NCBI RefSeq assembly: GCF_947489565.1
Contig: NZ_CANLEA010000001.1
Coordinates: forward strand, 62,001-126,000
From: an uncultured Kordia sp.
GTDB taxonomy: Bacteria; Bacteroidota; Bacteroidia; Flavobacteriales; Flavobacteriaceae
Direction of reading: 5' to 3'
DNA length: 64,000 nucleotides
Part shown: one piece after another, positions 23,194 through 43,398 of the stretch
How the letters are laid out: each line of letters opens with the position of its first letter
Numbering within the stretch: the first letter of the stretch is position 1
Program-made: the position numbers and the translations under genes
Notes under the pieces: model-generated
The model's database searches: none
Told to the model about the DNA's origin: nothing
The model's input: only the letters and a program-made list of their open reading frames with translations

Positions 23194-23319
23194 ATGAAAA
23201 CACAAAAGACAAGATCGCCAGTAGATCATAAACAAACTGCTAACAAAAGACAGTTGAACCTAAACCATCTTTTAAAAGAATGGTGGAAAAACAATCACAA
23301 CAATAACTTAAAATCATAA
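23194..23319 (+). CDS. Very small basic protein
   Basis: 41 aa from the internal Met at 23194 (MKTQKTRSPVDHKQTANKRQ); the frame is open from 23134. It is strongly basic with a WWKNNHNNN end and no known family. It sits 4 bp before the next gene. It may be a real small gene or a translated leader. Confidence 0.4.
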   Translation: MKTQKTRSPVDHKQTANKRQLNLNHLLKEWWKNNHNNNLKS

Positions 23320-23323
23320 TCGT

Positions 23324-24430: not shown

Positions 24431-24441
24431 AAACACCTCCT

Positions 24442-25158
24442 ATGAAAACAACATATCTATTACTGATAACACTTCTAAGTATCGCTTTTACAAATTGCAC
24501 CGATAGCATTACGCCAAAGATGCATTTTCTCACATTTGCTATTGATCAAACAGAAGGTATTCCTTTCTCGTTATCATACGATCAGGTATTGCAACCAATG
24601 CAGGATGTACCCCTTCATGATGGCATTGAACTGTCCATTATCACAATTACGGATTTTCACTACGCTGATAAATATAGCCTGATTACAGGTACTGGAGAAA
24701 TAGGTTGGTTTGCTAATGATCATGAACGGTTACTAGAGCGAAAGAAACTCTTTGCTTCGTTTAGAGAAGCACTCACACCGTTTTATACCGATACTACGCG
24801 CACCAATCGCTCCGATATTTATCGCGTAGTGATTAAAGAAGTGAATGAACTGGCACAAAAGTCAGGAAGCAAAACACTCATTATTGATTCCAATTTACAG
24901 GAGCATAGCTTCTTTTCAGTCTACAACAAGACGCATCTGCATCAATTGTTTCATAACCTTGATGCCGTAGTAAAACGTTTTGAATCAGCGCACGTACCGC
25001 ATGATGATCTCTCAGGGATTACCGTCATTATTGCGCAGAGTCCAACACCAGAAGATCAAAAACTGTTCACTCAACTTTTAAGACTCTACAAAAATATTTT
25101 GGAACCGCGTGGCGCAACGCTACAGGTAGGTATGGATAGGCATATTCATATTAACTAA
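24442..25158 (+). CDS. Lipoprotein with a von Willebrand A-like fold pattern
   Basis: 238 aa with a lipoprotein signal (lipobox AFTNC). The mature part begins MHFLTFAIDQTEGIP, resembling the first strand and metal loop of VWA-like domains, and ends in a strand-helix pattern (ITVIIAQSPTPEDQKLFTQL). It starts 11 bp after the coiled-coil membrane protein and belongs to the same operon. Function unknown; plausibly an envelope component of the transfer machinery. Confidence 0.6.
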   Translation: MKTTYLLLITLLSIAFTNCTDSITPKMHFLTFAIDQTEGIPFSLSYDQVLQPMQDVPLHDGIELSIITITDFHYADKYSLITGTGEIGWFANDHERLLERKKLFASFREALTPFYTDTTRTNRSDIYRVVIKEVNELAQKSGSKTLIIDSNLQEHSFFSVYNKTHLHQLFHNLDAVVKRFESAHVPHDDLSGITVIIAQSPTPEDQKLFTQLLRLYKNILEPRGATLQVGMDRHIHIN

Positions 25159-25165
25159 TATCAGT

Positions 25166-25309
25166 ATGAACGATTCATTATTCCTTCGTTTTGTAAAAGC
25201 AGTCTTCGGACTGCTTTGGAAACTGTTCTTAAACCTGCTATATCTAGCAGGGCGAATACTAGAAGTATGCATTACCGCACTGAATAATCTATTAAAAAAC
25301 TACATCTAA
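25166..25309 (+). CDS. Small hydrophobic protein (47 aa)
   Basis: A short frame, MNDSLFLRFVKAVFGLLW onwards, ending NNLLKNYI. It fits neatly between two operon genes: 7 bp after the lipoprotein stop and 2 bp before the coupling-protein ATG. Most of it would form one amphipathic or membrane helix. Tight spacing on both sides is the main evidence that it is real. It may be a membrane partner of the following ATPase, which lacks clear membrane segments of its own. Confidence 0.55.
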   Translation: MNDSLFLRFVKAVFGLLWKLFLNLLYLAGRILEVCITALNNLLKNYI

Positions 25310-25311
25310 AA

Positions 25312-26766: not shown

Positions 26767-27190
26767 TTTTACCTCAGTACATGATTATCTTGATCAACTT
26801 TTTAAAGGAGGCAATCCAAGTAAGGAAGACATTATTCTTGCCAAGAAGAACTACTGGCGAGCGTATAACACCGATTTGAAACGTAGGAAGCGATCTGCCT
26901 GTCCTACGTTCCAAATCTCCTTTTCCAAAGATGAATTGTTACGCATCAAAGAGAAACTACAACAAGGACAATCAGTATCAAAATACATTTATCAGCTGGT
27001 AAAACAGCATATTGAATCGCACACTATTCTGCCATCAAAAGTAAATACTGCTGTTATTGAACAGCAACTGTTTTTAATTAGTGAATACCTACGTGAGTTA
27101 CTCGATTATGAAGATATTGATGCAGAAAAAATCACAGAACTTGAAAACCATATTCAAACCTTAGAAACGGTAATACAAGAATCTTTATGA
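26753..27190 (+). CDS. Mobilization accessory protein (MobC/ribbon-helix-helix type)
   Basis: 145 aa from ATG 26753, overlapping both the coupling protein (14 bp) and the relaxase (4 bp). A strand-helix-helix core (FQISFSKDELLRIKEKL, then SVSKYIYQLVKQHI) matches the pattern of relaxosome accessory proteins that bind oriT. A leucine-rich helical tail follows (ELENHIQTLETVIQ). Likely role: relaxosome assembly with the relaxase. Confidence 0.75.
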   Translation: MKPTSFTSVHDYLDQLFKGGNPSKEDIILAKKNYWRAYNTDLKRRKRSACPTFQISFSKDELLRIKEKLQQGQSVSKYIYQLVKQHIESHTILPSKVNTAVIEQQLFLISEYLRELLDYEDIDAEKITELENHIQTLETVIQESL

Positions 27191-28070
27191 TTATAAAATC
27201 CAAAAGTTACAAGCATGACAAAGCCTATACAACAGTAGTAGATTATGTGATGCGAGAATCAGAGCAAGATAATAGTTTTGTCCTAACGCGATTTATCAAA
27301 GGAAAGAATCCATCTAATGCTGAAATCTCCAAACAGTTTTTAGAAAATGAAAAGCACCGTGTGAATCCACGAAAGAATAATGTAAAACTGTATATGGAGA
27401 TTCTCTCGTTCCACGCTCATAATGCGAAAGATTTGACGAATGACAAGCTCAAGAAGATTGCACGTAAATACTTGTCATTACGTAGTCCACACTCGGTAGC
27501 ACTAGTTACCGTGCATCGAAAGGAAAAAGACCATGTACATCTTCACGTATTATTAAGTGGTACAGAATACAAAACAGGGAAGTCAGTACGTATCTCACGT
27601 GATGATTTTAAGCACAAAGTGAAAATCCCAGCAGAGCAGTATGTGCAGAAGAATTTTCCTGAGCTACATCGCTCTGCCATACAGCACGATTCCTCAAAAA
27701 AAAAGTACTAACCAAGGATGCAGAATATCAAATGCAACTGCGTGGAGCAGTCTCTGATAAACAGTATTTGATTACTATTTTAAAAGACAATTACACCAAA
27801 GCATCCTCGGAAAAAGATTTCTACACCAGATTGCAGGAACAAAATATTGAATTGTATTCTCGAAATAATAAGATTGTTGGTGCAAAACTAGAAAGGAAAT
27901 TCAGATTCAAAACGCTTGGCTACGACAGAGTCTCACTTCAAGAATTAAACAAAAACCTCTCTCAAAACAAACGTTTAGACATGCTTAAGCGCATACGTTT
28001 ACATCAAGAACAACAACAACAATCAAAGGAGCGTCAGGGACGTGAAAGAACAAGAAAAAGAGGTCGTTAA
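27187..28070 (+). CDS. MobA-type relaxase in two frames, joined by -1 frameshift at A_AAA_AAG
   Basis: Frame one (27187-27711, 174 aa) is the nuclease part: N-terminal Tyr residues (YTTVVDYVMRES) and the histidine cluster HRKEKDHVHLHVLL near residue 118. It ends KKKY-stop just after a run of nine A. The following frame is open through the same A run and reads on as KKKVLTKDAEYQMQL to 28070, a helical C-terminal part ending in a basic tail. The heptamer A_AAA_AAG (27699-27705) is in the right phase for a -1 slip, as in E. coli dnaX. The two parts could instead be the result of an indel or of transcriptional slippage. Confidence 0.78.
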
Positions 28071-28085
28071 ACGCCTCTTTTTTTG
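28055..28085 (+). terminator. Terminator of the mobilization operon
   Basis: AAAAAGAGG and CCTCTTTTT enclose a 10-base loop and run into T. The stem overlaps the last codons of the relaxase. Confidence 0.8.
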
Positions 28086-28115
28086 ATTACTTTCCAAAGG
28101 TTCTAGGAGTTTCCT

Positions 28116-28168
28116 AGCAGGATCGCATTATGAAAATGAGCTTGTGATTGTCATAATGCAATCCTGCT
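28116..28168. repeat. 18-bp inverted repeat, candidate oriT
   Basis: AGCAGGATCGCATTATGA (28116-28133) pairs with TCATAATGCAATCCTGCT (28151-28168) with one mismatch and a 17-base loop. It has no T run, so it is not a terminator. A large inverted repeat beside a relaxase gene is the usual look of oriT. Confidence 0.5.
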
Positions 28169-28233
28169 CACTCACTGTCCTAAAAGTTTTCCATAGGGGA
28201 ATCATGGGATTACGACTTAGTTCAGCTAGTGAT

Positions 28234-28272
28234 AAAATGTCCTTAAAGCTTAAAGCGACTAAGGACATTTTT
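28234..28272. terminator. Hairpin, probable bidirectional terminator
   Basis: AAAATGTCCTTA and TAAGGACATTTT enclose 14 bases, with T runs on both strands. It lies between the mobilization operon and a convergent minus-strand gene. Confidence 0.65.
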
Positions 28273-28299
28273 GTATAGGATACTCTATTTTCATCTTAA

Positions 28300-28542
28300 C
28301 TATTTTTTATAATGATAGATTTCACTGTCAGTTGCGTTGACTTTATCATGACCGTTTGTAATAGTAAAATTCCAAGTATGATCAACTTCTATCTCTTCTA
28401 TTTTAACTTGATCTCCTAATAACCAGTCTTTAACTTTTTTTTCATCTAATGTGTTGATAGCAAACTCTTTTATGTCTCCATCAATAAGAATATCAAAATT
28501 TCTGTGATTAGGATAAACATGAGTAATCTGTCCAATTTTCAT
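28300..28542 (-). CDS. Small hypothetical protein, beta-rich
   Basis: 80 aa, alternating strand pattern (MKIGQITHVYPNHRNFDILI, then EFAINTLDEKKVKDWL). The length and strand pattern suggest a small beta-barrel, but no family is recognised. It stands alone between the mobilizable element and the secreted GloVer protein, with convergent neighbours. Confidence 0.55.
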   Translation of the reverse strand: MKIGQITHVYPNHRNFDILIDGDIKEFAINTLDEKKVKDWLLGDQVKIEEIEVDHTWNFTITNGHDKVNATDSEIYHYKK

Positions 28543-28707
28543 AAATAATTATTTATATATTAAATATATGCAAAGTATAGTAAAAAACTAAAAGCTTAGT
28601 ATTCCTGCTGGATATTTTATCTTATTAAGAAGTTTTTTATAAATCGAACCCACACTCCAAAAAAACTGGATTTTGAATATGTAGTACAACACACATTCAT
28701 TGTTATT

Positions 28708-31308
28708 TTATTGTTTTATAAACTTCACAGTCTGCAATTTTCCAAACACATCTTTCACTTTCAAAAAGTACAATCCATTGGATAAATTACGCACATCAAT
28801 CTTTTCTTGATTGGAATAAGAAACTAATTTTTGACCTTGAAATGAATAGATTTCTATAGTACTAATTGCTGATGGAGAACTAATTTGCAAAAAATCTTGT
28901 GTCGGATTCGGAAATACTGACACATTCAAGTTCTCCTTAAATGTTTCTGTAGACAAAGAATCATCACTTAAATCAATAATGTTAAATGCGAGTTCTGTAT
29001 TTCCATCAAAGTTAAAAGCAACATTCATAGCAGTATTACCTTGCTCAAAAGAAACCAAACTATAAGGACTTGATGTGCCTGTATAGGATGGCACTAACAA
29101 TCGTCCATCATTCATAATACTAAGCCTGTTATAAGCGATTGCACTTGAAATTCCATTAGGATTATTTCCACTTCCATTGCTATCAAATATAAGTGTAACA
29201 ATATCTGAATCAAGTTTGTATTCTGTTAAATAAGAAGATATAGGAATACCAATACTTGGGAACACCGTTTGACTTTCAATATATAAGTTATTATTAACGG
29301 TATATAATTCCGTAGGATTTCTTCCAGTTTGGTTTACTGCATGATCAAACTGATACAGAATTGAAAACACTCCAGTTGCACCATCTATTTTGAAAATACT
29401 GCCATCTGTACCATGAGAATTTTCCAATGTTCCGTAAATATCTCCACTTGGTACTTCAACAAGTCCTGCTTGACCACTTTGAGTAAGATGTTCAATAATG
29501 GTGAACTGACTTGTTTGCGTGTCAAAAGAAAACACAAATCCTTCATTATTTGTTCCGCCACTTGAGGTTACTCCGTACATAATTCCATCAGATGAAAAAA
29601 ACGATGCAACGGTATTTACTAAATCATCGGATTCATAGAGTGCATTGTAGGTATGAGTAAGCGTATTGTATGAAAAAATAGTTCCGCGATATAAAACACC
29701 GTTTCCTGCCCAACGCTTAATGCCGTAGATGATATTATCTTTTTCAAAAAGACGAATACGTTCTCCAATTGTACTGCCATCAGATAAAGTACCAAAAAAA
29801 TGAGCAAGCGAATGTGATCCATCACTTGGATCATATTCTATAAGTGTACCTTGTCCTGAAGCGAACCCACCGAACCGAGTATAGATGTAAATGAGTCCAT
29901 TAGTAGTTTCTATAAGACTTACTGGATCATTTCCGTAGCTAAACGTTTCAATGGTAGCAAAATCAATCAGTACCGAATACGCATCAGTATCAGGATCAAA
30001 ACTAAAGAACCTGTCTTCATAATTTGAACCGATATCTGTTCCACACACACCATAAATAGTTCCATCACTTGCTTTTATCATAGCGTTGGGTGTCTTTCCG
30101 TCAGTTCCAAAATCAGTTCTATTCAGTGCTGACGTTGATTGGGTAGTAGTGTCGTATTCCATCAAGTTACCATTCCCTTGATAGATTTGGTTTCCATAAA
30201 CAATACGGTTATCACTTGTTTTAAAGAGTGATGTTCGTATCACACCATCGTCGAGTCCATTTAAGGTCAGATCAATGGTGCTGTTTGCGATATCATATTT
30301 AAAAAACAATTGCTCATCACTATTGGATTGTAACAAACTTACACCATACAACTTTCCTGCATCAAAAAGTAAGGGTTCAAAACCGCGAAACGAAGCTTCA
30401 TTTCCTATGGGTTGTACATTGCTTGGAAATGAGTATACGTTATTAAACGCAACTGTAGTAAGGTCAAATTCATATATTCTTGCGCCTCCACCTGTTAAGG
30501 GATATACATAACCGTAGAGCATATTGTTTCCTCCTTCAGTTAGATTATCTGCTTTTTCTGATGCTGATAAATCATACAGTACGGAGTAGGTATTAGTCGT
30601 AGTATTAAATTCAAAAATAACTCCTTCATCATTTGTTCCTCCATAAGTAGTTGCACCATATATGTTTCCATTGCTGTGTTCCATCAAAGAATGACACCAA
30701 TCGCCAGTAGCCGTAGCAAAAGTGTGTTCAATGGCAAGTGTTGCAGTAGCTATATCGTAGGAAAACAAAATATTCGTTTGTGCTGTTGGACGACTCAGTC
30801 CATATAACTTTCCATTGCTAGTATATATCAGATCAATCACTTCACTTACTCCAATAGATGCAAGTGATACTAGCGGTGTTATGGTTTGCGAATTAATATC
30901 ATACCGAACAATGGATGTACCTGTAAAAAACTGTTGTTGCAGAGCATATATGCTTACGCTATCAGTGCAAAGTTCAGTTATATAATTAGTATCGGTTGTT
31001 CCTACGGCTTCAAAGAAATGAAGAATCTGAAAATTTTCACTCACTGGATCATATTCATATAGTGAACCTTCTCCAAGAAACCCATCCTCATCAGTTACTC
31101 CATAGTATTTACCACCAATCTCTACAATATTATCATGTGGTGGCGCACCATTATCAGTAAAGGTATATTTGGTTTGTGGCACATCATCCGTAATTTGAAT
31201 AATAGTACCAAAGCTATTAGACTGATCATTGGAAGCGAATCCAAGATAATTGGTTTGTGAAAAAGCCAGGAATGGGAAAAAGAGAAGAACAAATATAATC
31301 CGTTTCAT
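28708..31308 (-). CDS. Secreted GloVer-repeat protein with T9SS type A sorting domain
   Basis: 866 aa. It has a signal peptide (ending LAFSQ) and then many copies of a roughly 50-residue beta-propeller-like repeat built around forms such as YGVTSSGGTNNEGFVFSFD and IYGATTYGGTNDEG, the GloVer pattern. The C-terminal 75 residues or so are a type A sorting domain (VFPNPTQDFLQIS ... LSNGLYFLKV ... KFIKQ). It is therefore exported by the type IX system and released or anchored at the surface. Ligand unknown. It lies outside the transfer genes and is convergent to them. Confidence 0.88.
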   Translation of the reverse strand: MKRIIFVLLFFPFLAFSQTNYLGFASNDQSNSFGTIIQITDDVPQTKYTFTDNGAPPHDNIVEIGGKYYGVTDEDGFLGEGSLYEYDPVSENFQILHFFEAVGTTDTNYITELCTDSVSIYALQQQFFTGTSIVRYDINSQTITPLVSLASIGVSEVIDLIYTSNGKLYGLSRPTAQTNILFSYDIATATLAIEHTFATATGDWCHSLMEHSNGNIYGATTYGGTNDEGVIFEFNTTTNTYSVLYDLSASEKADNLTEGGNNMLYGYVYPLTGGGARIYEFDLTTVAFNNVYSFPSNVQPIGNEASFRGFEPLLFDAGKLYGVSLLQSNSDEQLFFKYDIANSTIDLTLNGLDDGVIRTSLFKTSDNRIVYGNQIYQGNGNLMEYDTTTQSTSALNRTDFGTDGKTPNAMIKASDGTIYGVCGTDIGSNYEDRFFSFDPDTDAYSVLIDFATIETFSYGNDPVSLIETTNGLIYIYTRFGGFASGQGTLIEYDPSDGSHSLAHFFGTLSDGSTIGERIRLFEKDNIIYGIKRWAGNGVLYRGTIFSYNTLTHTYNALYESDDLVNTVASFFSSDGIMYGVTSSGGTNNEGFVFSFDTQTSQFTIIEHLTQSGQAGLVEVPSGDIYGTLENSHGTDGSIFKIDGATGVFSILYQFDHAVNQTGRNPTELYTVNNNLYIESQTVFPSIGIPISSYLTEYKLDSDIVTLIFDSNGSGNNPNGISSAIAYNRLSIMNDGRLLVPSYTGTSSPYSLVSFEQGNTAMNVAFNFDGNTELAFNIIDLSDDSLSTETFKENLNVSVFPNPTQDFLQISSPSAISTIEIYSFQGQKLVSYSNQEKIDVRNLSNGLYFLKVKDVFGKLQTVKFIKQ

Positions 31309-31436
31309 AACAGGTTGAATTTAATGGTTTAATGAAACGAAGTTAATAAAAATGTTTATATATGTGGTAAATTATATGTTGTAATTTAATTTAAGTAGAA
31401 ATACCACTTTTACAGGGAATCAATACTGCTCCTGTA

Positions 31437-31688
31437 ATGGCTAAGAAAACACAACCTAAAGACCAAAAAGACCTTGATCCTAGAATTATACAGATTGCTG
31501 AAAAGCTAGAACGAATCCGAAAAGAAAAAGGATATACTTCGTATGAAAACTTCGCCATTGATAAAGGAATATCAAGGATGCAGTATTGGCGAATGGAGAA
31601 GGGAACAAACTTTACCTTTGAGAGTTTTTTAAAGATATTGGATGCTCATGGTATGAGTTTGAATGAGTTTTTTAATGAGTTTGAATAA
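31437..31688 (+). CDS. Xre-family helix-turn-helix regulator
   Basis: 83 aa, a single HTH_3-type domain (IIQIAEKLERIRKEKGYTS ... DKGISRMQYWRMEKGTNFTF). It heads a compact three-gene plus-strand run with an Mrr-like nuclease (40-bp gap) and a TIR protein (no gap), so it probably controls that pair, as regulators of toxic defence genes often do. Confidence 0.8.
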   Translation: MAKKTQPKDQKDLDPRIIQIAEKLERIRKEKGYTSYENFAIDKGISRMQYWRMEKGTNFTFESFLKILDAHGMSLNEFFNEFE

Positions 31689-31728: not shown

Positions 31729-32235
31729 GTGCAAATAGATTTTGATGAAATAAAAGACGGTGAACACTTCGAAGACCTAACTATTGCCTATTTTGAAGAA
31801 GAGAAACATACTAAAGGTGATATTATTGATATAGGAATTCGTCCTTCTGGTACAGGAACAGATGGTGGTCGAGACATTCTTATTAGCTTCAAAGTAACAG
31901 ATGGAATAAAATCTTTTGACAGGATTTGGATTATACAATGCAAATTTTGGAATAGAAATATTTCCACAAATGAGATTAGTGATATAAATATTCCTTCATT
32001 AATACACTCTTATAATGCTGACGGTTATTTATTAATATGTAGAAAGAAGCCAACAGCAAAACTAACTGAGCATTTTGAAAAATTAAATGACAATTGTAAA
32101 TTCAACTATAATTACCTGATATGGTCAGGAGAGCAGTTTAAAAGGCTTCTTGGAAAAAGTCCTGAGAATATTTTGGCACAGTTTTTTCCAAAATATTATA
32201 AACAGATGCTAGAAATGAAAAAACTACTTAGTTAA
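31729..32235 (+). CDS. Mrr-like restriction endonuclease domain protein
   Basis: 168 aa with a GTG start at 31729. The core GTGTDGGRDILI ... IWIIQCKFW gives a PD-(D/E)xK pattern of the Mrr_cat kind (G-x-D-x-G-x-D, then Q-x-K). The protein is little more than this domain plus a helical tail (LAQFFPKYYKQMLEMKKLL). No methylase is adjacent. Its stop is followed at once by the ATG of the TIR gene, so the two are probably made in step. Confidence 0.78.
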   Translation: MQIDFDEIKDGEHFEDLTIAYFEEEKHTKGDIIDIGIRPSGTGTDGGRDILISFKVTDGIKSFDRIWIIQCKFWNRNISTNEISDINIPSLIHSYNADGYLLICRKKPTAKLTEHFEKLNDNCKFNYNYLIWSGEQFKRLLGKSPENILAQFFPKYYKQMLEMKKLLS

Positions 32236-32697
32236 ATGAAAGCTTTTTTATCATATTCTATTAAGGATTCTGATCAAATCATTATTTCTCTATTGTCCAC
32301 ACAATTAAGAGAGAAAGGTTTTCATGTTTTAACAAGTCAAAACTTTTTTAGCGAGTACGTTGATTACACAACACAAAACGAAATAGACAGAGCTAATATT
32401 TTTATTGGTATAATTTCCAATGCTTCTCAATACCCTAAACGAGTTATTGACGAATGGAATCTAGCTGAAACTTCGGGTACTCCAACTATTTTATTAATTG
32501 AAAAAGGAGTAAATATCAATCCTGATTTTAAAGGTGATTATGTTCTTTTTGATAGAAGATATCCTAATGACGCAATTCAAGAGATTAATAGAAAAATGAG
32601 TCAATCAAAAGAAAGTTCTTCCGCTTGGCCGTGGATTATTGGAGGTGCATTAGTTTTAGGGCTAGTTAAGGTATTCTCTTCAATTAATGATGACTAA
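32236..32697 (+). CDS. TIR-domain protein with C-terminal membrane anchor
   Basis: 153 aa. The TIR core opens MKAFLSYSIKDSDQIIISL, contains ANIFIGIISNASQYPKRVIDEWNLA (given in parts; the Glu in DEW is at the usual place of the NADase catalytic residue) and ends near 120. A single transmembrane helix follows (WPWIIGGALVLGLVKVF). Bacterial TIR proteins commonly degrade NAD or make signal nucleotides during phage infection. The direct abutment with an Mrr-like nuclease gene suggests a two-protein defence unit. Confidence 0.75.
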   Translation: MKAFLSYSIKDSDQIIISLLSTQLREKGFHVLTSQNFFSEYVDYTTQNEIDRANIFIGIISNASQYPKRVIDEWNLAETSGTPTILLIEKGVNINPDFKGDYVLFDRRYPNDAIQEINRKMSQSKESSSAWPWIIGGALVLGLVKVFSSINDD

Positions 32698-33119
32698 TCA
32701 TTTATAATTCATATAAAATCGTTCTCTTCAACACTTCTTATAATTTTTTCTCGTATGAAATTTTGCGTATAATCCGTCTTCCATATGTATATAGTTATAA
32801 ATTATATTAAAAAATAATTTATTAAAAAGTGAAGATTAAAGAGCACAATAGTTAATGGGGTTTTTAAGTGATTAAGCTCACTTGTTATTCATAATTTTAA
32901 TTTTGATAAGTTTATTCCTGCATTTGCCATGATGGTTATAAGTTGGGTATTTAATGTCTTGGAAATGAATAATAAAAATAAAATTTAATAACAAAAAAAT
33001 ATTCGCAATTGTGATACCTTTTTTTGTCCTTTTCTAATCAAGCGACTTTGAATACCTTGTAAATAAAGGGATTAAGTGTTGTCCTTTTTTTTCACAGCTT
33101 AACTTTGAATCTTTATGAA
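32698..33119. other. Intergenic AT-rich stretch
   Basis: About 420 bp with no open frame that I trust and no convincing hairpin or promoter. It separates the TIR operon from a small membrane protein gene. Confidence 0.5.
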
Positions 33120-33314
33120 ATGAAAGTAACTAGATACATAGAAAATATAAAAATGAGAGTTGGAACATTGATATTATGCATGACTTTTTTACTGGTTTTG
33201 GTAGTTTATTGGATTATGCCAACTAAAAAAATGAAAGCAGTAAACGGAGAAATGGTATCACTATTAAAATCTCTTAAAAAGGAGACAAGAGATAAAGATG
33301 GAAGTAGTCCTTGA
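33120..33314 (+). CDS. Small single-pass membrane protein
   Basis: 64 aa from ATG 33120; an in-frame TTG lies at 33105. One transmembrane helix (VGTLILCMTFLLVLVVYWIM) is followed by a basic, charged tail. Its place just before a HEPN-type gene may mean that the two act together. No family recognised. Confidence 0.5.
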   Translation: MKVTRYIENIKMRVGTLILCMTFLLVLVVYWIMPTKKMKAVNGEMVSLLKSLKKETRDKDGSSP

Positions 33315-33387
33315 TTAAGGAATATAGTAAAAGTGTCAGAATGTCGTTATCAAGTTCCTCGGAACAGTCTTTGATTCTTAGTAAAGA

Positions 33388-34047
33388 ATGGGACTGATTG
33401 AAAAGAAATTAGGATACTTAATAACTATCATTGAATGCACAGAAGACTATTTAGAGTCTTTGATTAAACTTATCGAAGTATCAGAAGCGACTAGAGATAG
33501 GACATTTGCACATGAGTTCGATAACTTTTTACATTTGAGTTACCTCCATGCTACTAGTGTTGTAGAGCTAGCAGTAATTACTAAAAATCTTGAATCTGCT
33601 ATTTATATTTCAGAACAACGTTTTTTTATGAAAGCCACTAATCTCATTGTATATGAAATGATCAATACATATAACAAATATTCTATTGAATATAGAAGAC
33701 TTTCTGAAAATAATCCTAAAATGAGAACTTCTCTTAATGAGCTAAATTCAAAGCTTAAGAAGTTTAGAAAAAAATTTAATATTGATAATAAAGTAAGTAG
33801 AGTAAGAAATAAAACGATTGCCCATTTAGATAAAGATGTCAAAGAGTATACTTCAATTGTTTCTAGTTTAAATAAAAAAGACACCATATCAATGGCTATG
33901 GAGTTTTTGATGATAATTTCAAAAGTAGACGATTTATTCCATCATTATTATAATACAGATAAAGGGAAGGTATATTCTCCTTCTGAAATTGAAGATTCTA
34001 AGAAAAAATTAGATCAACTATTATCCATATCAAGGAAAAGAGAGTAA
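33388..34047 (+). CDS. HEPN domain protein, AbiU2-like
   Basis: 219 aa, nearly all helical. The segment RVRNKTIAHLDKD (about residue 143) is the R-N-x3-A-H signature of HEPN domains in AbiU2-like proteins. Proteins of this group are RNases or relatives of abortive-infection proteins. The gene is convergent with an Xre regulator and sits among other defence-type genes. There is no adjacent nucleotidyltransferase, the common partner of HEPN toxins. Confidence 0.65.
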   Translation: MGLIEKKLGYLITIIECTEDYLESLIKLIEVSEATRDRTFAHEFDNFLHLSYLHATSVVELAVITKNLESAIYISEQRFFMKATNLIVYEMINTYNKYSIEYRRLSENNPKMRTSLNELNSKLKKFRKKFNIDNKVSRVRNKTIAHLDKDVKEYTSIVSSLNKKDTISMAMEFLMIISKVDDLFHHYYNTDKGKVYSPSEIEDSKKKLDQLLSISRKRE

Positions 34048-34449: not shown

Positions 34450-34507
34450 AATGCACAATTTTTAAAATGGTATGTTTTGTGTAAATGTATCGATAAACAT
34501 TGTAAAT

Positions 34508-34561
34508 AGCAAAATACACAAATATATTTTTATTAAATTGCATATAATTGTGTATTTTGCT
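34508..34561. promoter_or_regulatory. Operator: 19-bp inverted repeat in a divergent promoter
   Basis: AGCAAAATACACAAATATA (34508-34526) and TATAATTGTGTATTTTGCT (34543-34561) are inverted copies with one mismatch. Further TTTGTGTA half-sites lie at about 34476 and 34578. The left arm covers a minus-strand -7 box (TATATTTG, 34526-34519), and the right-hand half-site overlaps a plus-strand one (TATTTTTG, 34575-34582). Binding would shut off both directions. Confidence 0.65.
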
Positions 34562-34615
34562 TATATTCGCATTATATTTTTGTGTATAAACACGATAACG
34601 CTCATTTTTTTAGTT

Positions 34616-36145
34616 ATGAATCAATTTGATACCTCAAACAAGAACCACTTTATCTTTACCACTGAGCGATTGGCATTCCATATCCTTGGCGGTTTGTCCT
34701 CCTTCGGCTTGGATCGGCTTCGCGTAACGATCAAGGTACATCGAAACGAAGATGAGTTCCACGCCTTACGTCACAGCATTGATTTGTACAATGCCAACGG
34801 AGTTGAGAAGTTTGTTCGTAAGCTTGCTGAATTTCTGGAAATCGGAACTTCAGTTATTCGCAGAGCCTTGCAGGAACTCATTGCAAAATTGGAACAGCAC
34901 CGACTGGAACTGCTTGATCAAGTTGAACAAGATGAAGTTGAAGAATATCTGCTGTCTAAAAAGGAACGTCGCTCGGCAATGGATTTTTTAAAGTCTCAAG
35001 ACTTATTAGGAAAAACAAATAAACTCATAGGTAAAAGCGGTGTCATTGGAGAAGAGAATAATAGACTACTGATGTATTTGATCTTTACTTCACGTAAGAT
35101 GAACAATCCGCTCCACTGTATTTCTTTTGGAAGTAGCGGTTCAGGAAAGACACATCTGCAATCAAGTATTGCAGAACTGATTCCTACCGAAGACAGATTA
35201 AGCTTGACTTCGCTATCAAGTAATTCCTTTTATTATTTCAAGCGACATGAATTGAAACATAAACTAGTCCTTATTGAAGATTTAGACGGAGCAGATGATG
35301 TTTTGTATCCGCTTCGAGAATTACAAACCAAAAAACGTATTACCAAATCAGTGGTGCAAAAAGGAACGGGTGGACAAGGAACAACCAAGAACTTGGTCGT
35401 TGAAGGACCCGTATCAGTTGCAGGATGTACCACCAAAGAAAGTATCTATGAAGACAATTCAAATCGTTCCTTTCTCCTCTACATTGATGAAAGTGAAGAA
35501 CAGGACGAGCGTATTATGAACTATCAACGAAAGCTATCAGCGGGGAACGTTGATATTGAACAGGAATTACAAGCAGAAGCATTGTTGCAAAATGTACAGC
35601 GACTACTTAAACCTGTTCGGGTGATCAATCCTTTTGCTGAAGCACTCATACTTCCAAAGTCAGTATTTAAACCACGACGTACCAACGCCCACTACTTACA
35701 ATTCATTGAAGCCGTTACCTTCTATCATCAGCACCAACGTGAATCAAAGTTCGACTTACACACAGGAGAAGAATACATTGAAACAACCTTAGAAGATATT
35801 AAGTATGCCAACGAACTGCTTAAACCAATCTTGCTTCGTAAATCAGATAATCTAAATGGTGCAACACGCAGTTACTTTGAACGTCTTAAAACATACTTAC
35901 ACAAAAAACAAGACAGCATATTTACCAATAGGGAAATTCGCAAAGAATTTAGAATGGCAGAAAGTACGCATCGTAGGTATCAACTAGTATTACAACAAGA
36001 AGGATATATCAAACGAAGAACGGATATACAAAGTGATTCGTTTGTGTATGAAATCGTAGATGTGGACGAGTTTGGAGAATTAGAAAACAGTATTAATTCA
36101 GCACTTAGTTTTTGCCTTGAAAAACTCGAAGAACAAAGAAATTAA
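34616..36145 (+). CDS. AAA ATPase like the helicase half of mobile-element primases
   Basis: 509 aa from ATG 34616 (MNQFDTSNKNHFIF). Walker A GSSGSGKT is at about residues 171-178, LVLIEDLDGAD as Walker B near 221, then ELQTKKRITKS and VAGCTTKESIYEDNSNRSF (sensor region). This looks like the C-terminal helicase part of CHC2/toprim primases found with paired integrases in Bacteroidetes elements. The zinc finger and primase domains are absent. The C-terminal 90 residues or so resemble a winged helix. Two recombinase genes follow, so it likely belongs to a transposition module. Confidence 0.72.
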   Translation: MNQFDTSNKNHFIFTTERLAFHILGGLSSFGLDRLRVTIKVHRNEDEFHALRHSIDLYNANGVEKFVRKLAEFLEIGTSVIRRALQELIAKLEQHRLELLDQVEQDEVEEYLLSKKERRSAMDFLKSQDLLGKTNKLIGKSGVIGEENNRLLMYLIFTSRKMNNPLHCISFGSSGSGKTHLQSSIAELIPTEDRLSLTSLSSNSFYYFKRHELKHKLVLIEDLDGADDVLYPLRELQTKKRITKSVVQKGTGGQGTTKNLVVEGPVSVAGCTTKESIYEDNSNRSFLLYIDESEEQDERIMNYQRKLSAGNVDIEQELQAEALLQNVQRLLKPVRVINPFAEALILPKSVFKPRRTNAHYLQFIEAVTFYHQHQRESKFDLHTGEEYIETTLEDIKYANELLKPILLRKSDNLNGATRSYFERLKTYLHKKQDSIFTNREIRKEFRMAESTHRRYQLVLQQEGYIKRRTDIQSDSFVYEIVDVDEFGELENSINSALSFCLEKLEEQRN

Positions 36146-36176
36146 GTGTTTACTGGCTGTGACTCACCATCTCCAC

Positions 36177-36258
36177 CTCGCCACAGGTTCGCCACTTTTA
36201 AAGTGGCGAGTGTAACGTGCATATAATCAAAGAGTTGCGAATAGCTCGCCACTTAAAG
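36177..36258. repeat. Cluster of CTCGCCAC repeats with a palindrome
   Basis: CTCGCCAC (36177-36184), a near-perfect palindrome CGCCACTTT-T-AAAGTGGCG (36190-36208), and CTCGCCACTT again at 36245-36254 lie in the 170 bp between the ATPase and the first recombinase. They could be recombinase or regulator binding sites. Confidence 0.5.
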
Positions 36259-36318
36259 CAAAATACAAAAGCTAGGTCGATAATCGACATGAGAAAATAA
36301 CGCAGAACATCGTTAATA

Positions 36319-37266
36319 ATGAAGAAATTACAACTTGAAAGCGAAACCTACATAACATTATTAGCCTCATACAAAGAATGGCTTGAAGTCCTTGGCTACG
36401 GAAAGTCTACCGTATACAACCTACCGAATCATTTACGCGAGTTCTTTCATTATTTAGAACGAAAAGGACATACTGGAATTGCTACAATCAATACCCAAAC
36501 CGTTACTGATTACTATGATTATCTTTCACAGCGTGGTAATCAACGACGAGGAGGTTCTCTAAGTAAATCCTTTTTAAACAAGCACCAACAAGCCTTAAAG
36601 AAATTCTTGGACTATTTAAAAGAACACAATGCTCATGTAAATTTTGGTGTACATCTAAAACAAGAGAAAGTAAGTTATATAAATAATAAAACGATCCTTA
36701 CACAAATTGAGATCAAAGAACTCTTTGAAGCCTGTCAGTATACGCACATGGCTTCATACTTTCAATCACGAGACAAAGCTATCTTGGTTTTGTTATACAG
36801 TTGCGGACTTCGAAGAAACGAAGCGGTGCATATTGATACCGAAGACATCTTATTTCAAAAAGGACGTATCTATGTCAGAAAGGGAAAGAATTACAAAGAA
36901 CGCTTTGTGCCGATCAACAAATATAACTTGGAAATTCTCGAAGAATATGTATATGAACACCGAATGGAATTTGCAACTGACTATCAAACGGATGCACTGC
37001 TATTATCCTCCCTTGGTAAACGTATCAATGACATGACTATGGCACTCAGATTAAAAACCATTGTTGAGGCAACCCAAAATGAAGCGATCATGGAAAAGAA
37101 TATTACACTCCATACCTTACGGCACAGTATTGCAACCCACTTGATGCAAAACAACGTACCTATTCAATTAATAAGTTCTTTTCTCGGACATAGTTCTTTA
37201 GAAAGCACACAAATCTATACCCATTTAGCTGATCCTTACGCCCACAAACAACGAGTTTATGAATAA
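36319..37266 (+). CDS. Tyrosine recombinase XerC/D-like (first of pair)
   Basis: 315 aa. The N-terminal core-binding domain (YLERKGHTGIATINTQTV) is followed by the catalytic domain with LLYSCGLRRNEAVHI (Arg), HTLRHSIATHLM (His-x-x-Arg), LGHSSLESTQIYTH (His and nucleophilic Tyr). All catalytic residues are present. It overlaps the next recombinase gene by 8 bp. Paired tyrosine recombinases with an ATPase recall transposons such as Tn554 and related Bacteroidetes elements. Confidence 0.9.
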   Translation: MKKLQLESETYITLLASYKEWLEVLGYGKSTVYNLPNHLREFFHYLERKGHTGIATINTQTVTDYYDYLSQRGNQRRGGSLSKSFLNKHQQALKKFLDYLKEHNAHVNFGVHLKQEKVSYINNKTILTQIEIKELFEACQYTHMASYFQSRDKAILVLLYSCGLRRNEAVHIDTEDILFQKGRIYVRKGKNYKERFVPINKYNLEILEEYVYEHRMEFATDYQTDALLLSSLGKRINDMTMALRLKTIVEATQNEAIMEKNITLHTLRHSIATHLMQNNVPIQLISSFLGHSSLESTQIYTHLADPYAHKQRVYE

Positions 37267-38164
37267 TAAAACATACTTACAGTACCTCAAAGAGAATGGA
37301 TATTCAGAAGGAACGATTAAAACTTATGACGATACAAAGTCTCAATTTATAGCTTGGTGTGAGTTAAAAGAATATGATCCGCATACGATAAGCTACCGAC
37401 AATGTTTGGAATACGTCAAGAAATTGCAAACAGGGAAGCATGGCAAACGGCTCAGTCAGTCCACCGTCAAACATAAAGTTGGAGCATTAAAAATCTATTT
37501 CAATTATCTTATTAATCAGGAGTTACGGTTTGATAATCCAGTTCAGAATATTAACATACGTGGAGTAAAGCGAACACTCAACCACAATCTCCTTGAGTTT
37601 GCAGAACTTGAAGACTTGTATTATAGCTATCCTACGCACAATATTGAATTTCCAAGTAGTCCTTCTGTTGCTATTCGCAACAAAGTTATCACAGGATTTA
37701 TCGTCTACCAAGGAATGAATACGACCGCACTTAAATCTCTTACTGTAGATCATGTTCACGTCGAAAAGGGAATTGTGTACATACCAAGCACCCGAAAAAC
37801 CAATGGGCGAACACTCGAACTCAAATCTCAGCAGATATTACCGCTTGTTCAATATCTCGAAAAACATCGAGAGATACTTCAAGAAGAACTCCAAAACTAC
37901 TCACAAAACTTATTTCCAATTAACTCCAATCGTTTTGATATTATAAGGGTGCAACTCTACAAGAAGCTCAAACGTATTAATCACAAAATAGTCAGTCCAA
38001 AACAAGTACGTGCATCAGTCATTACGCATTGGCTATCTGAATACAACATTCGAGAAGTACAATACATGGCAGGGCATCGTTATATTTCTTCTACCGAACG
38101 CTACTTACAAGATGACCTTGAAAACTTACAAGAAGTTATTGAGAATTTGCATCCGATAAATTAA
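37259..38164 (+). CDS. Tyrosine recombinase-like protein (second of pair), catalytic site partly lost
   Basis: 301 aa. It has the same two-domain layout as its neighbour, but the first catalytic Arg position reads YQGMNTTALKSLTVD (no Arg), and the His-x-x-Arg position reads VRASVITHWL. The end, YMAGHRYISSTERYLQ, keeps the last His and the Tyr. It may act only together with the upstream recombinase as a divergent heteromeric partner. Confidence 0.8.
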   Translation: MNNKTYLQYLKENGYSEGTIKTYDDTKSQFIAWCELKEYDPHTISYRQCLEYVKKLQTGKHGKRLSQSTVKHKVGALKIYFNYLINQELRFDNPVQNINIRGVKRTLNHNLLEFAELEDLYYSYPTHNIEFPSSPSVAIRNKVITGFIVYQGMNTTALKSLTVDHVHVEKGIVYIPSTRKTNGRTLELKSQQILPLVQYLEKHREILQEELQNYSQNLFPINSNRFDIIRVQLYKKLKRINHKIVSPKQVRASVITHWLSEYNIREVQYMAGHRYISSTERYLQDDLENLQEVIENLHPIN

Positions 38165-38307: not shown

Positions 38308-39462
38308 ATGCCTTATTATGCACCTCTAAAGAGAATAGAAATCACTACTCGAAATCGAATTATTGATGGTCTTCAAAGGTTAAGAACTCAATTTAGAAAC
38401 CTTAATTTCCCAAATAAAAAAGCATCTGAATCCTTGATCTTAGGAACGTGGAACATCAGAAATTTTGATGATGATCGTTTTAATTACGGACCAAGATTAG
38501 ACGAATCATATTATTATATAGCGGAAATTATTTCAAAGTTTGATGTAATAGCAATCCAAGAAGTTTGTACAGATTTGTGGCCTTTGAAAAAATTAATGAG
38601 AATACTAGGAGGAAGTTATGATTATATACTTACTGATACAACCCATAGCTCTCTAGGAGGTAATCAAGAACGTCTTGGTTTTATATATGATAAAAGTAAA
38701 GTCAGGTTTACAGGTGTCGCTGGAGAAATTGTACTACCTGAAAGATTATTAATTAGTGAGGTTACGAATAAAAAAAGGCAGTTTTCAAGAACTCCTTTCG
38801 GTGTAGAATTTCAATCAGGGTGGTTTAAATTTACATTTTCAACAGTCCATATTTATTTTGGAAGTAATGGTGTAACCACTACAAAGTATAAGAGAAGAGT
38901 CCAAGAAATAAATGCAGTAGCAAATTATCTATCCAAAGAGGCAAAGAATAGTGATTCTAATCATATTTTGGTTGGTGATTTTAATATCAAAGAACCTAGA
39001 AGTGAAGGTTATAATGCCTTAGAAAAAAATGGCTTTAGTGTTGTTAAAAATATAAAAGGGAGTAATAGAGACCAAACAAAATTTTATGACCAAATATCAT
39101 TTAGATCAAGAAAAAATGAACTTCAATTTTTAGAGCCAGAAAGAGATGATAGAGTAATTCAGTTTTTTGATAGTATTTTTCGTGAGGAAGATTTTGAAAC
39201 TTATAAGCCTATCATGAAAAAAAGAATTGAAGATAAGCTTGTTAAAGCAGAAAATGATTTAGCAGAGGCGACATCACAACGCAAAAAGAAGAAAGCAGAA
39301 GGTCAAATAAAAAGCCTAACAAAAGCTAAGTCAACTAATGAATCTTTAAAAGAATATTATGATGAATGGAAAACATTTCAAGCTAGTGATCATTTACCGT
39401 TGTGGGTTGAAATAAAAATTGATTTTAGTAATAACTATTTGGAATATCTAAAAACACATTAA
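38308..39462 (+). CDS. Endonuclease/exonuclease/phosphatase (EEP) family protein
   Basis: 384 aa. EEP motifs in order: GTWNIRNFDDD (about 46), VIAIQEVC (about 88), RLGFIYDKS, FSTVHIYFGS, LVGDFNIKEP (about 223) and SDHLPLWVEI (about 361). A basic coiled coil (KAENDLAEATSQRKKKKAEG) is inserted before the last motif. There is no signal peptide, so it acts in the cytoplasm, probably as a DNase. It is the first gene of a three-gene operon with a DEAH helicase and a second nuclease. Confidence 0.85.
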   Translation: MPYYAPLKRIEITTRNRIIDGLQRLRTQFRNLNFPNKKASESLILGTWNIRNFDDDRFNYGPRLDESYYYIAEIISKFDVIAIQEVCTDLWPLKKLMRILGGSYDYILTDTTHSSLGGNQERLGFIYDKSKVRFTGVAGEIVLPERLLISEVTNKKRQFSRTPFGVEFQSGWFKFTFSTVHIYFGSNGVTTTKYKRRVQEINAVANYLSKEAKNSDSNHILVGDFNIKEPRSEGYNALEKNGFSVVKNIKGSNRDQTKFYDQISFRSRKNELQFLEPERDDRVIQFFDSIFREEDFETYKPIMKKRIEDKLVKAENDLAEATSQRKKKKAEGQIKSLTKAKSTNESLKEYYDEWKTFQASDHLPLWVEIKIDFSNNYLEYLKTH

Positions 39463-39556
39463 AAACATTGATTCAAGTAGGTAAATACTCCGTATTATGT
39501 AGTTTTTTACTATATTAATTCGTTATTTAAGATAAAATAAAATATAGTAGATTTAT

Positions 39557-42500
39557 ATGGTACAGATTAATACACCTACAATTGAAAAACTTATCTACTC
39601 AAAAGATAATAATTTCATAAAGCAATATTATAAACAATCATCAGAAGTTAGACATTTTGAGTTTGTTCAAAAGACTCCATTTATTGTTTCTTCAGGCGAA
39701 GAATTATATTTTATTACAAGTAATCTAAATGATGAAGTGCCTGAAAATTGCACTTATTCAATATTAACGACTAGAAAGCCAACTAAAAGAGATTTTGAGT
39801 CTGGTTCTTTAAAAATTAAAAGGTGGCTAAAACATCCCTCTTTTCAAAATATGACTCCTCAAGATGTTATAAACTCTTGGGAAAATAAATTTAGATTTAT
39901 AAAAGAGGATGTTGAAAAAAATATTAATGGCTTAAGACCTCCTCAAATTGGAGCTTTATATTCAATACTAGCCCATGTTCAAAATCCTGAGGAGCGAGCG
40001 ATTATTGTAATGCCTACTGGTACAGGAAAAACAGAAACAATGTTATCTACATTAGTCGCGAATGGATGTAGTAAATTATTAGTTGCTGTACCTTCTGATT
40101 CTTTGCGTACACAATTATCAAATAAATTTATTACCCTTGGGTTGTTGAGAGAGTTTGGGATGGTAGATGACACTTGTCATAACCCTATTGTTGGTGTTAT
40201 AAATCAAAAGTTTGAGAATGAAGAAGAACTTTTAGATTTCATTTCCAAGACTAATGTTGTTATTACCACAATGAGTATTCTTGCAGGAAGTACTAATGCA
40301 CAACAACGGGTTATGTCTGATGCATTTAGTCACTTATTTGTTGATGAAGCTCATCATTCTGAAGCAAGTACATGGAAAAAATTCATAAACCTTTTTGATG
40401 ATGAAAAAATATTTTTATTTACAGCAACTCCTTTTAGAAACGATGGTAAAAATTTAGAAGGTAAATTTATTTTTAATTTTTCACTCAAAGAAGCACAAAG
40501 GCAAGGGTATTATAAGAAAATTAATTTTTTGCCAATTAGAGAGTACGATAAAAAAGAAGCTGATAAAAAAATTGCAATTAAAGCTGTGACAAAACTTCGA
40601 GAGGATATTGCAAATGGTCATCAACATATCATAATGGCAAGGTGTGTTTCAAAAAACAGAGCGATTGAAGTTTTTGAATATTATAAAGACTATGAAGATT
40701 TAAACCCTATCATGGTATACACAGGAATAGCTGGGTTAAAAGATAAAGTGACAGCAATAAAAGCAAGAGATCATAGTATTGTTGTTTGCGTAAATATGTT
40801 AGGAGAAGGCTTTGATCTTCCTGAATTAAAAATTGCTGCAATACATGATGAGAGACAAAGCTTACCAATTACTCTTCAATTTATTGGACGATTTACTAGA
40901 ACATCTTTTGAGAGTCTTGGCACTGCAAGTTTTATAACAAACATTGCTTATCCTCCTATCCAGCAAGAATTAAATCATCTATACGCAAAAAATGCTGATT
41001 GGAATTTATTACTTCCTAATATGAGTGAAGGTGCTACTGATAAGGAAATTGATTTTCAAGAGTTTTTAGAAGGATTTAATAATCTTGACGATTCAAATAT
41101 TCCTTTTCAAAATATTAATCCCGCTATGAGTTCTTTTGTTTATCGTAATAATGGGAATAATTGGAATCCAAATAATTGGAGGGAAGGAATTAATAATATA
41201 GGAACTTACGAGCATCAATTTAGTAAGCATAATCCTGAAAAAAACACATTAGTTATTATTTTAGGAAAAGTAAATAAAGTTGAGTGGGGAGATTTTGATG
41301 TAGTTCAGAATATGGAATGGAATATGGTCGTAGTTCATTGGGATTTTAGACCTGATAAAAATTTAGTATTCATAAATTCTTCCTTAAAGAACTTATCTAC
41401 AAGTAAATTAGTTCGAGCGATTTTTGGTGATAAATTTAACATGATCAATGGAATGGATATGTTTAAAATTTTTCATGACGTTAAAAGACTTACTCTTTAT
41501 AATGTTGGAGCAAGAAAAGGTACAGGACGTGACATTAGTTTCCAATCATTTTTTGGGAAAGGAGTTCAAGATGGTTTAAAACTTTTAGAACAAGGGACTT
41601 TAATAAAAAATAATGTTTTTGGAGTTGGATTCAAAGATGGGGAGAAGATATCATTAGGTTGCTCTGTAAAAGGAAAGGTTTGGTCTTATTTAAGGGGTAA
41701 TCTAAATGAGCTAACTCAGTGGTGTCAGAAAATAGGAGATGTACTAGTAGACCCAAATATTAACCCAAATACTGTATTAGAAAACACCCTTGTGCCTATT
41801 ACAATTACTGAAAGACCAAATGTAATTCCAATTGCTATTGAATGGCATCATGAAATGTATGAGTATGCAGAGAATAGGTTTGTTATTCATATTGATGGAA
41901 ATTCTTATGATTTATCTAATTCTGAATTAAATATAGTAGACACTCCTAATAATACTCCATTACGTTTCTCGTTTAAATGTGAAGATTTTAATATTTTATA
42001 TGAATTGACCTTAGGAACTAAAATGGTTGATGGAAAAGAATTAGCATTTCATGACATTATCAAAATCTCCAATGAAAACCCAATTATTTCTCACGGAAAT
42101 ATCACAGAAAGCTTAACTGATTTTCTACAAGTTTTTACACCTACAATTTGGTTTGCTAATGGAGGTCAACTATTTAAAAACAGTTATGTTGTTCCAAAAG
42201 AACAGGTTGACGTTATTCCATTAGATAATATTATTTCATACGATTGGACCGGAGTTTCCATTAATAAAGAAGCTCAAGGTATTTATCCATACGAGACAGA
42301 TTCTATACAGTATCATTTTATTAATGAAATAAGAGATGATTTTCAGATAATATATGATGATGATGGTTCTGGAGAAATTGCTGATATAATAGGGATTAAC
42401 GATGAAGATAAAAAAATTGATATACATTTATTTCATTTAAAATATGCGAAAAATGGGCGTACTGGAAATGACATAGGTAATTTTTATGAAGTATGTGGTC

Positions 42501-42805
42501 AAGCTCAAAAATCTTTAAATTGGAAATACCGAAATGGAAAGGATTTTTTCGATCATCTTTTAAGAAGAATAACCAAAACAAAAAAAGGAGTATCGTGTAG
42601 TAGAATCATTAAAGGTAGTGAGCAAAATTTAGAATTATTATTAAACGCTGCTAAATGGACAAAAGAAATGAAATTTCATATTTATATTGTTCAACCAAGC
42701 CTTGTAAAAGGTAATGGCTCTGAAGATATTATGTTACTTTTAGGAAATACATATCACTATTTACATACTGTAGGGAATGTAGAACTCAAGGTTTATTCTA
42801 GTTAA
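39557..42805 (+). CDS. SF2 DEAH-box helicase with nuclease-like C-terminal region
   Basis: 1082 aa. Helicase motifs: MPTGTGKTE (about 152), VDEAHH (about 261), FTATPFRND, VNMLGEGFDLPEL and LQFIGRFTRT. A long C-terminal half follows. Near residue 940 GEIADIIGI ... IHLFHLKYA and then YEVCGQAQKS give a PD-(D/E)xK-like pattern, though not a certain one. It sits 94 bp after the EEP nuclease and 35 bp before a small nuclease gene. Many defence systems pair such a helicase with nucleases, but I do not recognise this combination. Confidence 0.85.
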   Translation: MVQINTPTIEKLIYSKDNNFIKQYYKQSSEVRHFEFVQKTPFIVSSGEELYFITSNLNDEVPENCTYSILTTRKPTKRDFESGSLKIKRWLKHPSFQNMTPQDVINSWENKFRFIKEDVEKNINGLRPPQIGALYSILAHVQNPEERAIIVMPTGTGKTETMLSTLVANGCSKLLVAVPSDSLRTQLSNKFITLGLLREFGMVDDTCHNPIVGVINQKFENEEELLDFISKTNVVITTMSILAGSTNAQQRVMSDAFSHLFVDEAHHSEASTWKKFINLFDDEKIFLFTATPFRNDGKNLEGKFIFNFSLKEAQRQGYYKKINFLPIREYDKKEADKKIAIKAVTKLREDIANGHQHIIMARCVSKNRAIEVFEYYKDYEDLNPIMVYTGIAGLKDKVTAIKARDHSIVVCVNMLGEGFDLPELKIAAIHDERQSLPITLQFIGRFTRTSFESLGTASFITNIAYPPIQQELNHLYAKNADWNLLLPNMSEGATDKEIDFQEFLEGFNNLDDSNIPFQNINPAMSSFVYRNNGNNWNPNNWREGINNIGTYEHQFSKHNPEKNTLVIILGKVNKVEWGDFDVVQNMEWNMVVVHWDFRPDKNLVFINSSLKNLSTSKLVRAIFGDKFNMINGMDMFKIFHDVKRLTLYNVGARKGTGRDISFQSFFGKGVQDGLKLLEQGTLIKNNVFGVGFKDGEKISLGCSVKGKVWSYLRGNLNELTQWCQKIGDVLVDPNINPNTVLENTLVPITITERPNVIPIAIEWHHEMYEYAENRFVIHIDGNSYDLSNSELNIVDTPNNTPLRFSFKCEDFNILYELTLGTKMVDGKELAFHDIIKISNENPIISHGNITESLTDFLQVFTPTIWFANGGQLFKNSYVVPKEQVDVIPLDNIISYDWTGVSINKEAQGIYPYETDSIQYHFINEIRDDFQIIYDDDGSGEIADIIGINDEDKKIDIHLFHLKYAKNGRTGNDIGNFYEVCGQAQKSLNWKYRNGKDFFDHLLRRITKTKKGVSCSRIIKGSEQNLELLLNAAKWTKEMKFHIYIVQPSLVKGNGSEDIMLLLGNTYHYLHTVGNVELKVYSS

Positions 42806-42840
42806 TCAAAAATAGTTATTAATGTAAAATATTATATATA

Positions 42841-43398
42841 ATGAAAAATTTTGAGTTATTTGTTGATGAAACTGTTACTAAATGGCGTTTAAAAAAGAAA
42901 TATATTCTTGAGAACCAAGGTTTAGCAGGAGTTAGTAATAGAGAATCTGGAGACTCAGCTGAAAATTATATTCTAAGAAAAATTGGAGGACTACCTCAGA
43001 ACTATATTGGAAAAAAATCAAAAGGAAGTCAAAGTCCAGCTGATATTTTCGCAGTAGCAAGAAGAGGGCGTTTTTGGCACATAATGCTTATACAAGTTAA
43101 GAGTTCTGAAAATAAAAATAATATCTATACCCTTAATGAAGAAGACAAGAAAGTACTCAATGAGTTTGCTAAATTTTTCAAAAAAGAATTAAGAGCTTCA
43201 AAAACCATGAGTAATTATAAAAATAGTGCTGTAATTATTTCTGCTGGATATGCAGGAGTTTTTAATGATTTGAAAAATAGGAAACACTTTTTGAAAGACA
43301 CGAAACATTTTAAATCTTTTAAAAAGAATATGCCTGATATAAATAGTATTAAATTAAATTTGAAGATTGCTTTAGCTCATAGCTTGGCAACATCTTAA
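42841..43398 (+). CDS. PD-(D/E)xK nuclease domain protein
   Basis: 185 aa. The core GDSAENYILRKI ... SPADIFAVARRG ... IMLIQVKSSE reads Glu, Asp and Gln-x-Lys, a Holliday-resolvase or Vsr-like PD-(D/E)xK pattern. The rest is helical and basic. It is the third gene of the EEP-helicase-nuclease operon and would be the second, or third, nuclease activity in the set. Confidence 0.75.
   Translation: MKNFELFVDETVTKWRLKKKYILENQGLAGVSNRESGDSAENYILRKIGGLPQNYIGKKSKGSQSPADIFAVARRGRFWHIMLIQVKSSENKNNIYTLNEEDKKVLNEFAKFFKKELRASKTMSNYKNSAVIISAGYAGVFNDLKNRKHFLKDTKHFKSFKKNMPDINSIKLNLKIALAHSLATS

Follow-up and report, generated by a model that had tools for sequence, protein, structure and literature searches.

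A candidate one-gene helicase-nuclease beside two probably independent nuclease genes in the cargo of a Kordia integrative element

Genes of the locus and the integrative element

The window, that is, the whole stretch of DNA analysed here, comprises 64,000 nt from an uncultured Kordia sp. (assembly GCF_947489565.1, contig NZ_CANLEA010000001.1, positions 62,001-126,000, forward strand). An initial annotation had described three closely spaced genes on one strand, encoding an EEP nuclease, an SF2 helicase and a small PD-(D/E)xK protein (here PDX). Both the arrangement and the protein classes were confirmed: the ORFs lie on the + strand with gaps of 94 bases (EEP-helicase) and 35 bases (helicase-PDX), the first two proteins match PF03372 and ResIII, and a profile built on the third matches 2eo0. 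The features of the region are as follows.

13785..31688 (strand.): backbone of a mobilisable integrative element (D12 methylase, ATPase, tyrosine recombinase, coupling protein, relaxase and an 83-aa gene)
31729..34047 (+): other cargo (Mrr-type nuclease, TIR protein and AbiU2-like HEPN protein)
34472..38164 (+): gene of a 557-aa putative ATPase and two overlapping tyrosine recombinase genes, upstream of the three genes
38308..39462 (+): gene of a DNase I-type EEP nuclease, read as independent of the others (384 aa; PF03372, DNase I profile match, relatives in other company)
39557..42805 (+): SF2 helicase with a C-terminal PD-(D/E)xK-like domain, the main feature (1082 aa, single gene; ResIII, predicted model, relatives)
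39875..41026 (+): motor domain of the helicase, RadD/XPB/SauUSI-like (about residues 107-490)
42305..42802 (+): PD-(D/E)xK-like tail of the helicase (residues 917-1082; secondary structure, 17-sequence alignment)
42841..43398 (+): PDX, Hjc-like small protein of the PD-(D/E)xK (QVK) kind, likewise read as independent (185 aa; 2eo0 profile match, invariant residues)

Chance ORFs are unlikely, since the EEP protein, the helicase and PDX each have relatives in other genomes. The GC content of the three genes is 0.28-0.32, versus about 0.36-0.38 in the upstream ATPase and recombinase genes. The surroundings had been read as a defence-like cargo region next to recombinases, and this was borne out; the two tyrosine recombinases were found by the Pfam scan. 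The HEPN protein reported nearby was recovered as an AbiU2-like match (25.3 bits, cut-off 26.8), whereas the reported pair of TIR genes is one TIR gene preceded by one Mrr-type gene.

The genes at 13.8-31.7 kb of the window are largely collinear with those beside the helicase of Polaribacter glomeratus (87% protein identity). In P. glomeratus, the helicase starts 349 bases past the homologue of the 83-aa gene; in the window, the Mrr-type and TIR genes fill this spot, and the helicase is found about 8 kb beyond it. The same Kordia genome contains two further partial copies of the backbone, with none of the three genes within 60 and 56 kb. When a repeat of the tRNA-Asn end was sought as the border of the element, none convincing was found within the window.

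Domain composition of the three proteins

The helicase matches PF04851 ResIII in the Pfam scan (E 1.6e-25). SauUSI (7clg) is the best profile match of its motor (E 1.1e-19), and the motor is nearest SauUSI, XPB and RadD. The middle of the protein, about residues 525-860, is beta-rich. In the predicted model, the tail has a helix (917-928), two strands (944-949 and 953-961), a second helix (973-991) and a further strand (1037-1046), and residues E940, D943, H960, K962 and Q982 are invariant in 17 sequences. The fold order and E940, D943, K962 and Q982 agree with a PD-(D/E)xK core and H960 stands at the usual D/E place, while the tail has no match among PDB profiles. The possible nuclease pattern noted earlier in the tail is thus supported by the predicted fold order together with the five invariant residues. 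Comparisons of the middle and the tail gave nothing prominent, which does not prove a new fold. In the helicase, a RadD/XPB/SauUSI-like motor and a PD-(D/E)xK-like tail are fused into one self-contained protein. It has no dedicated model in PADLOC 2023. Identification as a named system by profile was also attempted, and the matches in PADLOC, NCBIfam and PHROGs were partial, mostly to the motor region, and none was specific. In the mostly open-access literature, none of the matches listed concerned the helicase family or the three-gene set.

The EEP protein matches PF03372 in the Pfam scan (E 5.3e-8), and DNase I is matched by a profile built from 15 relatives (E 3.7e-15). All 15 sequences share N49, E85, H181, D224, N226, D361 and H362, which we take to be catalytic positions. 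Both the family profile and the catalytic-type residues of the EEP/DNase I family are present. PDX has no Pfam match above the cut-off, and its profile of five sequences finds ST1444 (2eo0; E 7.2e-4), an archaeal protein that we take to be an Hjc-type resolvase. E41, D68 and Q85-V86-K87 are invariant in the five sequences of this alignment, which holds only four relatives besides PDX itself. PDX has the E...D...(D/E/Q)xK pattern of the PD-(D/E)xK superfamily, and its nearest match is a known member. Its single-sequence structure prediction was uninformative (pLDDT 36). Kinship between PDX and the helicase tail was also considered; hhalign aligns the active-site motifs, at a probability of 3.7%, which is not significant.

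Co-occurrence of the three genes

EEP or PDX relatives were found in the flanks of none of 29 other helicase loci (tblastn, E 1e-3), the flanks being up to 10 kb long, with one side short in several viral contigs. At the 95% level, a partner would accompany at most about 10% of helicase loci (computed for 28), a value that assumes independent loci, which close ones are not. L189 (same place as L002), L103 (a 454-aa frame) and weak or motor-only matches from the phylum sample and viral contigs were left out of the 29; L104 was counted via its 1025-aa frame, where the tblastn match spans residues 124-522 only. DNA alignments to L002-L006 (76-84% identity) run from 39549-39581 to 42803-42806, which corresponds to the helicase ORF alone; similarity to the five copies ends at most 24 bases from the ends of this ORF. 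Furthermore, among 395 phylum genomes sampled, the Kordia genome alone had strong matches to any two of these proteins. Homologues thus almost never occur together, the very observation that the initial annotation had named as refuting its proposal of a three-gene defence system, and the three genes do not hold up as one system. Its remark that no named system with this set came to its notice agrees with PADLOC, where no system matches the three. Two known types were tried and rejected: neither HamA nor HamB of Hachiman was matched in the three proteins to E 1, and the methylase and specificity functions of Type I/ISP restriction-modification are absent from them in the Pfam scan.

The two nucleases have distributions of their own. 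EEP matches are found in 52 of the 395 phylum genomes, the Kordia genome included, and most are weak; three other genomes have relatives that align almost end to end at 40-46%, and the Kordia genome also holds a paralogue at 33%. No common partner was seen among the neighbours of the EEP relatives, except in near-identical genomic pairs. Two of the five genomes of L002-L006 have an EEP match (P. glomeratus, E 2.4e-23; Maribacter arcticus, E 1.6e-7, in a 278-aa frame), none was found in the whole genomes of five helicase carriers of the family sample, and one scan of viral contigs gave no confirmed relative. Genome G388 combines a helicase match of long extent with an EEP match that is weak (25 bits) and general.

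PDX is rare. It was matched in 4/395 phylum genomes, namely its own, G057 (53%), G371 (31%) and one with a short match containing internal stops, and in 2/299 genomes of the family, its own and G467 (42%). One of 72,556 plasmid records and none of 50,697 phage records matched, and two scans of viral contigs gave no confirmed relative. None was found in the five genomes of L002-L006, although the same query does match genomes in the phylum and family samples. In G467, PDX begins 3 bases past a 1039-aa protein with AAA_21 and Ppl-like matches, and the gene run that holds it opens with a type IIG enzyme. In G371 and a Fibrella plasmid, the PDX relative lies within a longer protein, the Fibrella one being annotated GIY-YIG. 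EEP and PDX appear to be independent nucleases.

Occurrence and probable role of the helicase

Five relatives of the helicase, with 77-87% protein identity, occur in P. glomeratus, two Aquimarina, Maribacter arcticus and [Muricauda] lutisoli. Long matches were found in 7/395 phylum genomes and 6/299 family genomes, its own included in each, with at most two candidates scored per genome, so that some copies were possibly missed; the Kordia genome has one copy. Among plasmid records, 66 of 72,556 match at E 1e-20, 51 of them covering at least 80% of the query, and the copies belong to genera of Bacteroidota, Pseudomonadota and Actinomycetota (phylum placement presumed for most of these genera). 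Two of 50,697 phage records match, and nine viral contigs contain helicase frames of 975-1103 aa. With a Klebsiella plasmid copy as query, ten of 5,426 E. coli genomes match, eight of them over at least 80%, at 89.4%.

Defence genes are found near many copies. Among hand-picked neighbours, a type IIG enzyme lies upstream of the helicase in G400 (by 11 bases) and in G388, the helicase of G171 has a GmrSD-like enzyme upstream, and in G677 a type I R subunit is two genes away. The 121 neighbours of 16 helicase copies (of the 29 loci) matched 290 PADLOC families at E 1e-10, versus 22 families for the 94 neighbours of 12 EEP relatives (of 13 loci; L072, a near copy of L071, was dropped); the families are redundant, so these figures give a direction and not a rate. 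Among the matches listed for the helicase neighbours (first 25 of 290) are the GajA, HamB, UG5-nitrilase RT and AriA families, with two genes each; those of the EEP neighbours are cyclase, 2TM effector, CapH, CapP and HTH_VI, with one gene each. Gene context was read in three of the 66 plasmid records and one of the 10 E. coli records. In that one E. coli record, the copy WP_001549206.1 stands alone between gene remnants and adjoins a retron Ec78 system. The copy on a Bernardetia plasmid sits amid housekeeping-type genes.

The plan of the helicase can be compared with known systems. SauUSI carries a PLD-type nuclease and a modified-base reader. This type IV restriction enzyme (7clg) shares with the helicase the SF2 motor type and the arrangement as one ATP-dependent nuclease gene, whereas the helicase has no PLD family match in the Pfam scan to E 1. 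The motors of Type I/ISP restriction systems (LlaBIII, 4xqk; 3h1t) are related SF2 motors, but the three genes here include no methylase or specificity gene. In Nhi, the domain order places the nuclease first. Nhi is likewise described as a single-gene nuclease-helicase (PMC12904381). Hna of Sinorhizobium meliloti, a protein of 845 aa, resembles ExoDinG/XPD-type helicases (PMC13381803). It is also one gene, with an N-terminal SF2 motor and a C-terminal PD-(D/E)XK domain, and the likeness is in plan only (PMC13381803); the helicase here differs by its long beta-rich middle and HxK motif, and its motor, with ResIII and RadD/XPB matches, may be of another type. ARMADA type II also links EEP domains to defence helicases; these domains are reported to lie inside the YprA protein and are predicted to be inactive, whereas the EEP protein here is encoded by a separate gene and keeps catalytic-type residues (PMC12458937).

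The three genes are probably separately mobile passengers in the cargo of the element, and the helicase a self-contained defence-type enzyme whose motor would move along DNA and whose tail would cut it. A true three-gene defence system, recently assembled in this lineage, in which the helicase would open foreign DNA for degradation by EEP and PDX, appears improbable. The shared strand and short gaps make co-transcription possible and the low GC contents are similar; an EEP relative (33%) is also present in P. glomeratus about 21.5 kb from the helicase, on the same kind of element and beside a backbone gene. The latter speaks against a wholly random meeting, but with only two elements it is a hint only. 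The 29 other helicase loci without a partner nearby, the end of similarity at the helicase ORF and the absence of a second genome with strong matches to two of the three argue against such a system. It is still less credible that PDX is an accessory nuclease pairing with any motor protein encoded just ahead of it, in this case the helicase. The 35-base gap and the position of PDX behind the AAA_21/Ppl-like protein of G467 are consistent with this idea, but no motor family was found among the scanned genes around the G057 PDX, and the relatives in G371 and the Fibrella plasmid are embedded in longer proteins, with only four relatives aligned in all.

For the helicase itself, a role in DNA repair, element maintenance or anti-plasmid activity, the enzyme being merely resident on mobile DNA, seems rather unlikely. 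RadD and XPB, to which its motor is nearest, are repair helicases, and copies are found on plasmids, viral contigs and an integrative element; against this stand its patchy single-copy occurrence in the phylum and family samples and its defence-rich neighbours. Most likely, the helicase acts on its own as a DNA-translocating nuclease directed at foreign DNA, a defence role that we infer from its company, its patchiness and its domain plan. The SF2 motor would move along DNA with ATP, and the C-terminal PD-(D/E)xK-like domain (E940, D943, H960, K962, Q982) would cut DNA, presumably of phages or plasmids. The beta-rich middle may choose the target, which could be ends, single-stranded DNA or modified DNA. 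A bolder proposal, to which we give slightly less than even weight, is that the helicase is the first member of an undescribed anti-phage family of single genes present in several phyla. Its RadD/XPB-like translocase would pass DNA to a C-terminal PD-(D/E)xK domain with an unusual HxK active site, and the beta-rich middle would sense phage DNA or intermediates of replication. The helicase is testable soon, since one copy (WP_001549206.1) comes from E. coli itself. These analyses correct a tempting three-gene reading and offer a better target in its place: a single helicase-nuclease gene found repeatedly in defence-rich surroundings, from Bacteroidota to E. coli.

Neighbouring features in and beside the cargo region

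Several features of the window surround the EEP nuclease, helicase and PDX genes:

31729-32697, Mrr-type nuclease gene, then TIR-domain gene
34472-38164, gene for a putative ATPase of 557 aa, with two tyrosine recombinase genes
38216-38231, perfect palindrome TTACGGATTTCCGTAA, approximately 77 bases upstream of the EEP start
43464-44997, Rhs core fragment (TIGR03696, E 7.7e-14), then a small gene
46129-53493, type II secretion/type IV pilus-like cluster (pilin, prepilin peptidase, T2SSE, secretin, PilN, T2SSF)

The Mrr-type nuclease matches PF04471 (E 5.6e-6) and the PADLOC candidate family PDC-M58A (E 2.3e-9), and the TIR-domain gene (PF13676, E 2.3e-6) lies directly 3' of it. It is possible that these genes form a two-gene defence pair. 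The two tyrosine recombinase genes overlap by 8 bases, and the GC content of the ATPase/recombinase stretch is higher than that of the genes downstream; perhaps this stretch is a separate mobile unit. The palindrome is present in one exact copy in its own genome.

The tail of the Rhs core fragment shows a weak ParB-like match, and the following small gene is without known family. Together they look like an orphan Rhs toxin tip and its immunity gene. The secretion/pilus-like cluster adjoins the cargo region, immediately beyond its end.

tRNA-Asn as a possible target of the elements

2684-2763, tRNA-Asn gene of the window

In Polaribacter glomeratus, an 80-base stretch located 2.3 kb past the helicase relative is 96% identical to this gene. 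Therefore, tRNA-Asn may be the target used by the elements of both the window and P. glomeratus. No convincing second copy of the tRNA-Asn end was found within the window.

Relatives in other genomes

L092 (Marivirga plasmid), 10001-13217, helicase relative (72%)
L188 (genome G467), 1306-8582, same-strand gene run: type IIG restriction-methylase, 108-aa gene, AAA_21/Ppl-like protein of 1039 aa, PDX relative

The Marivirga helicase copy looks broken, because its alignment falls into six segments and the annotation divides it among several short genes. The run in G467 may be a defence operon in its own right.
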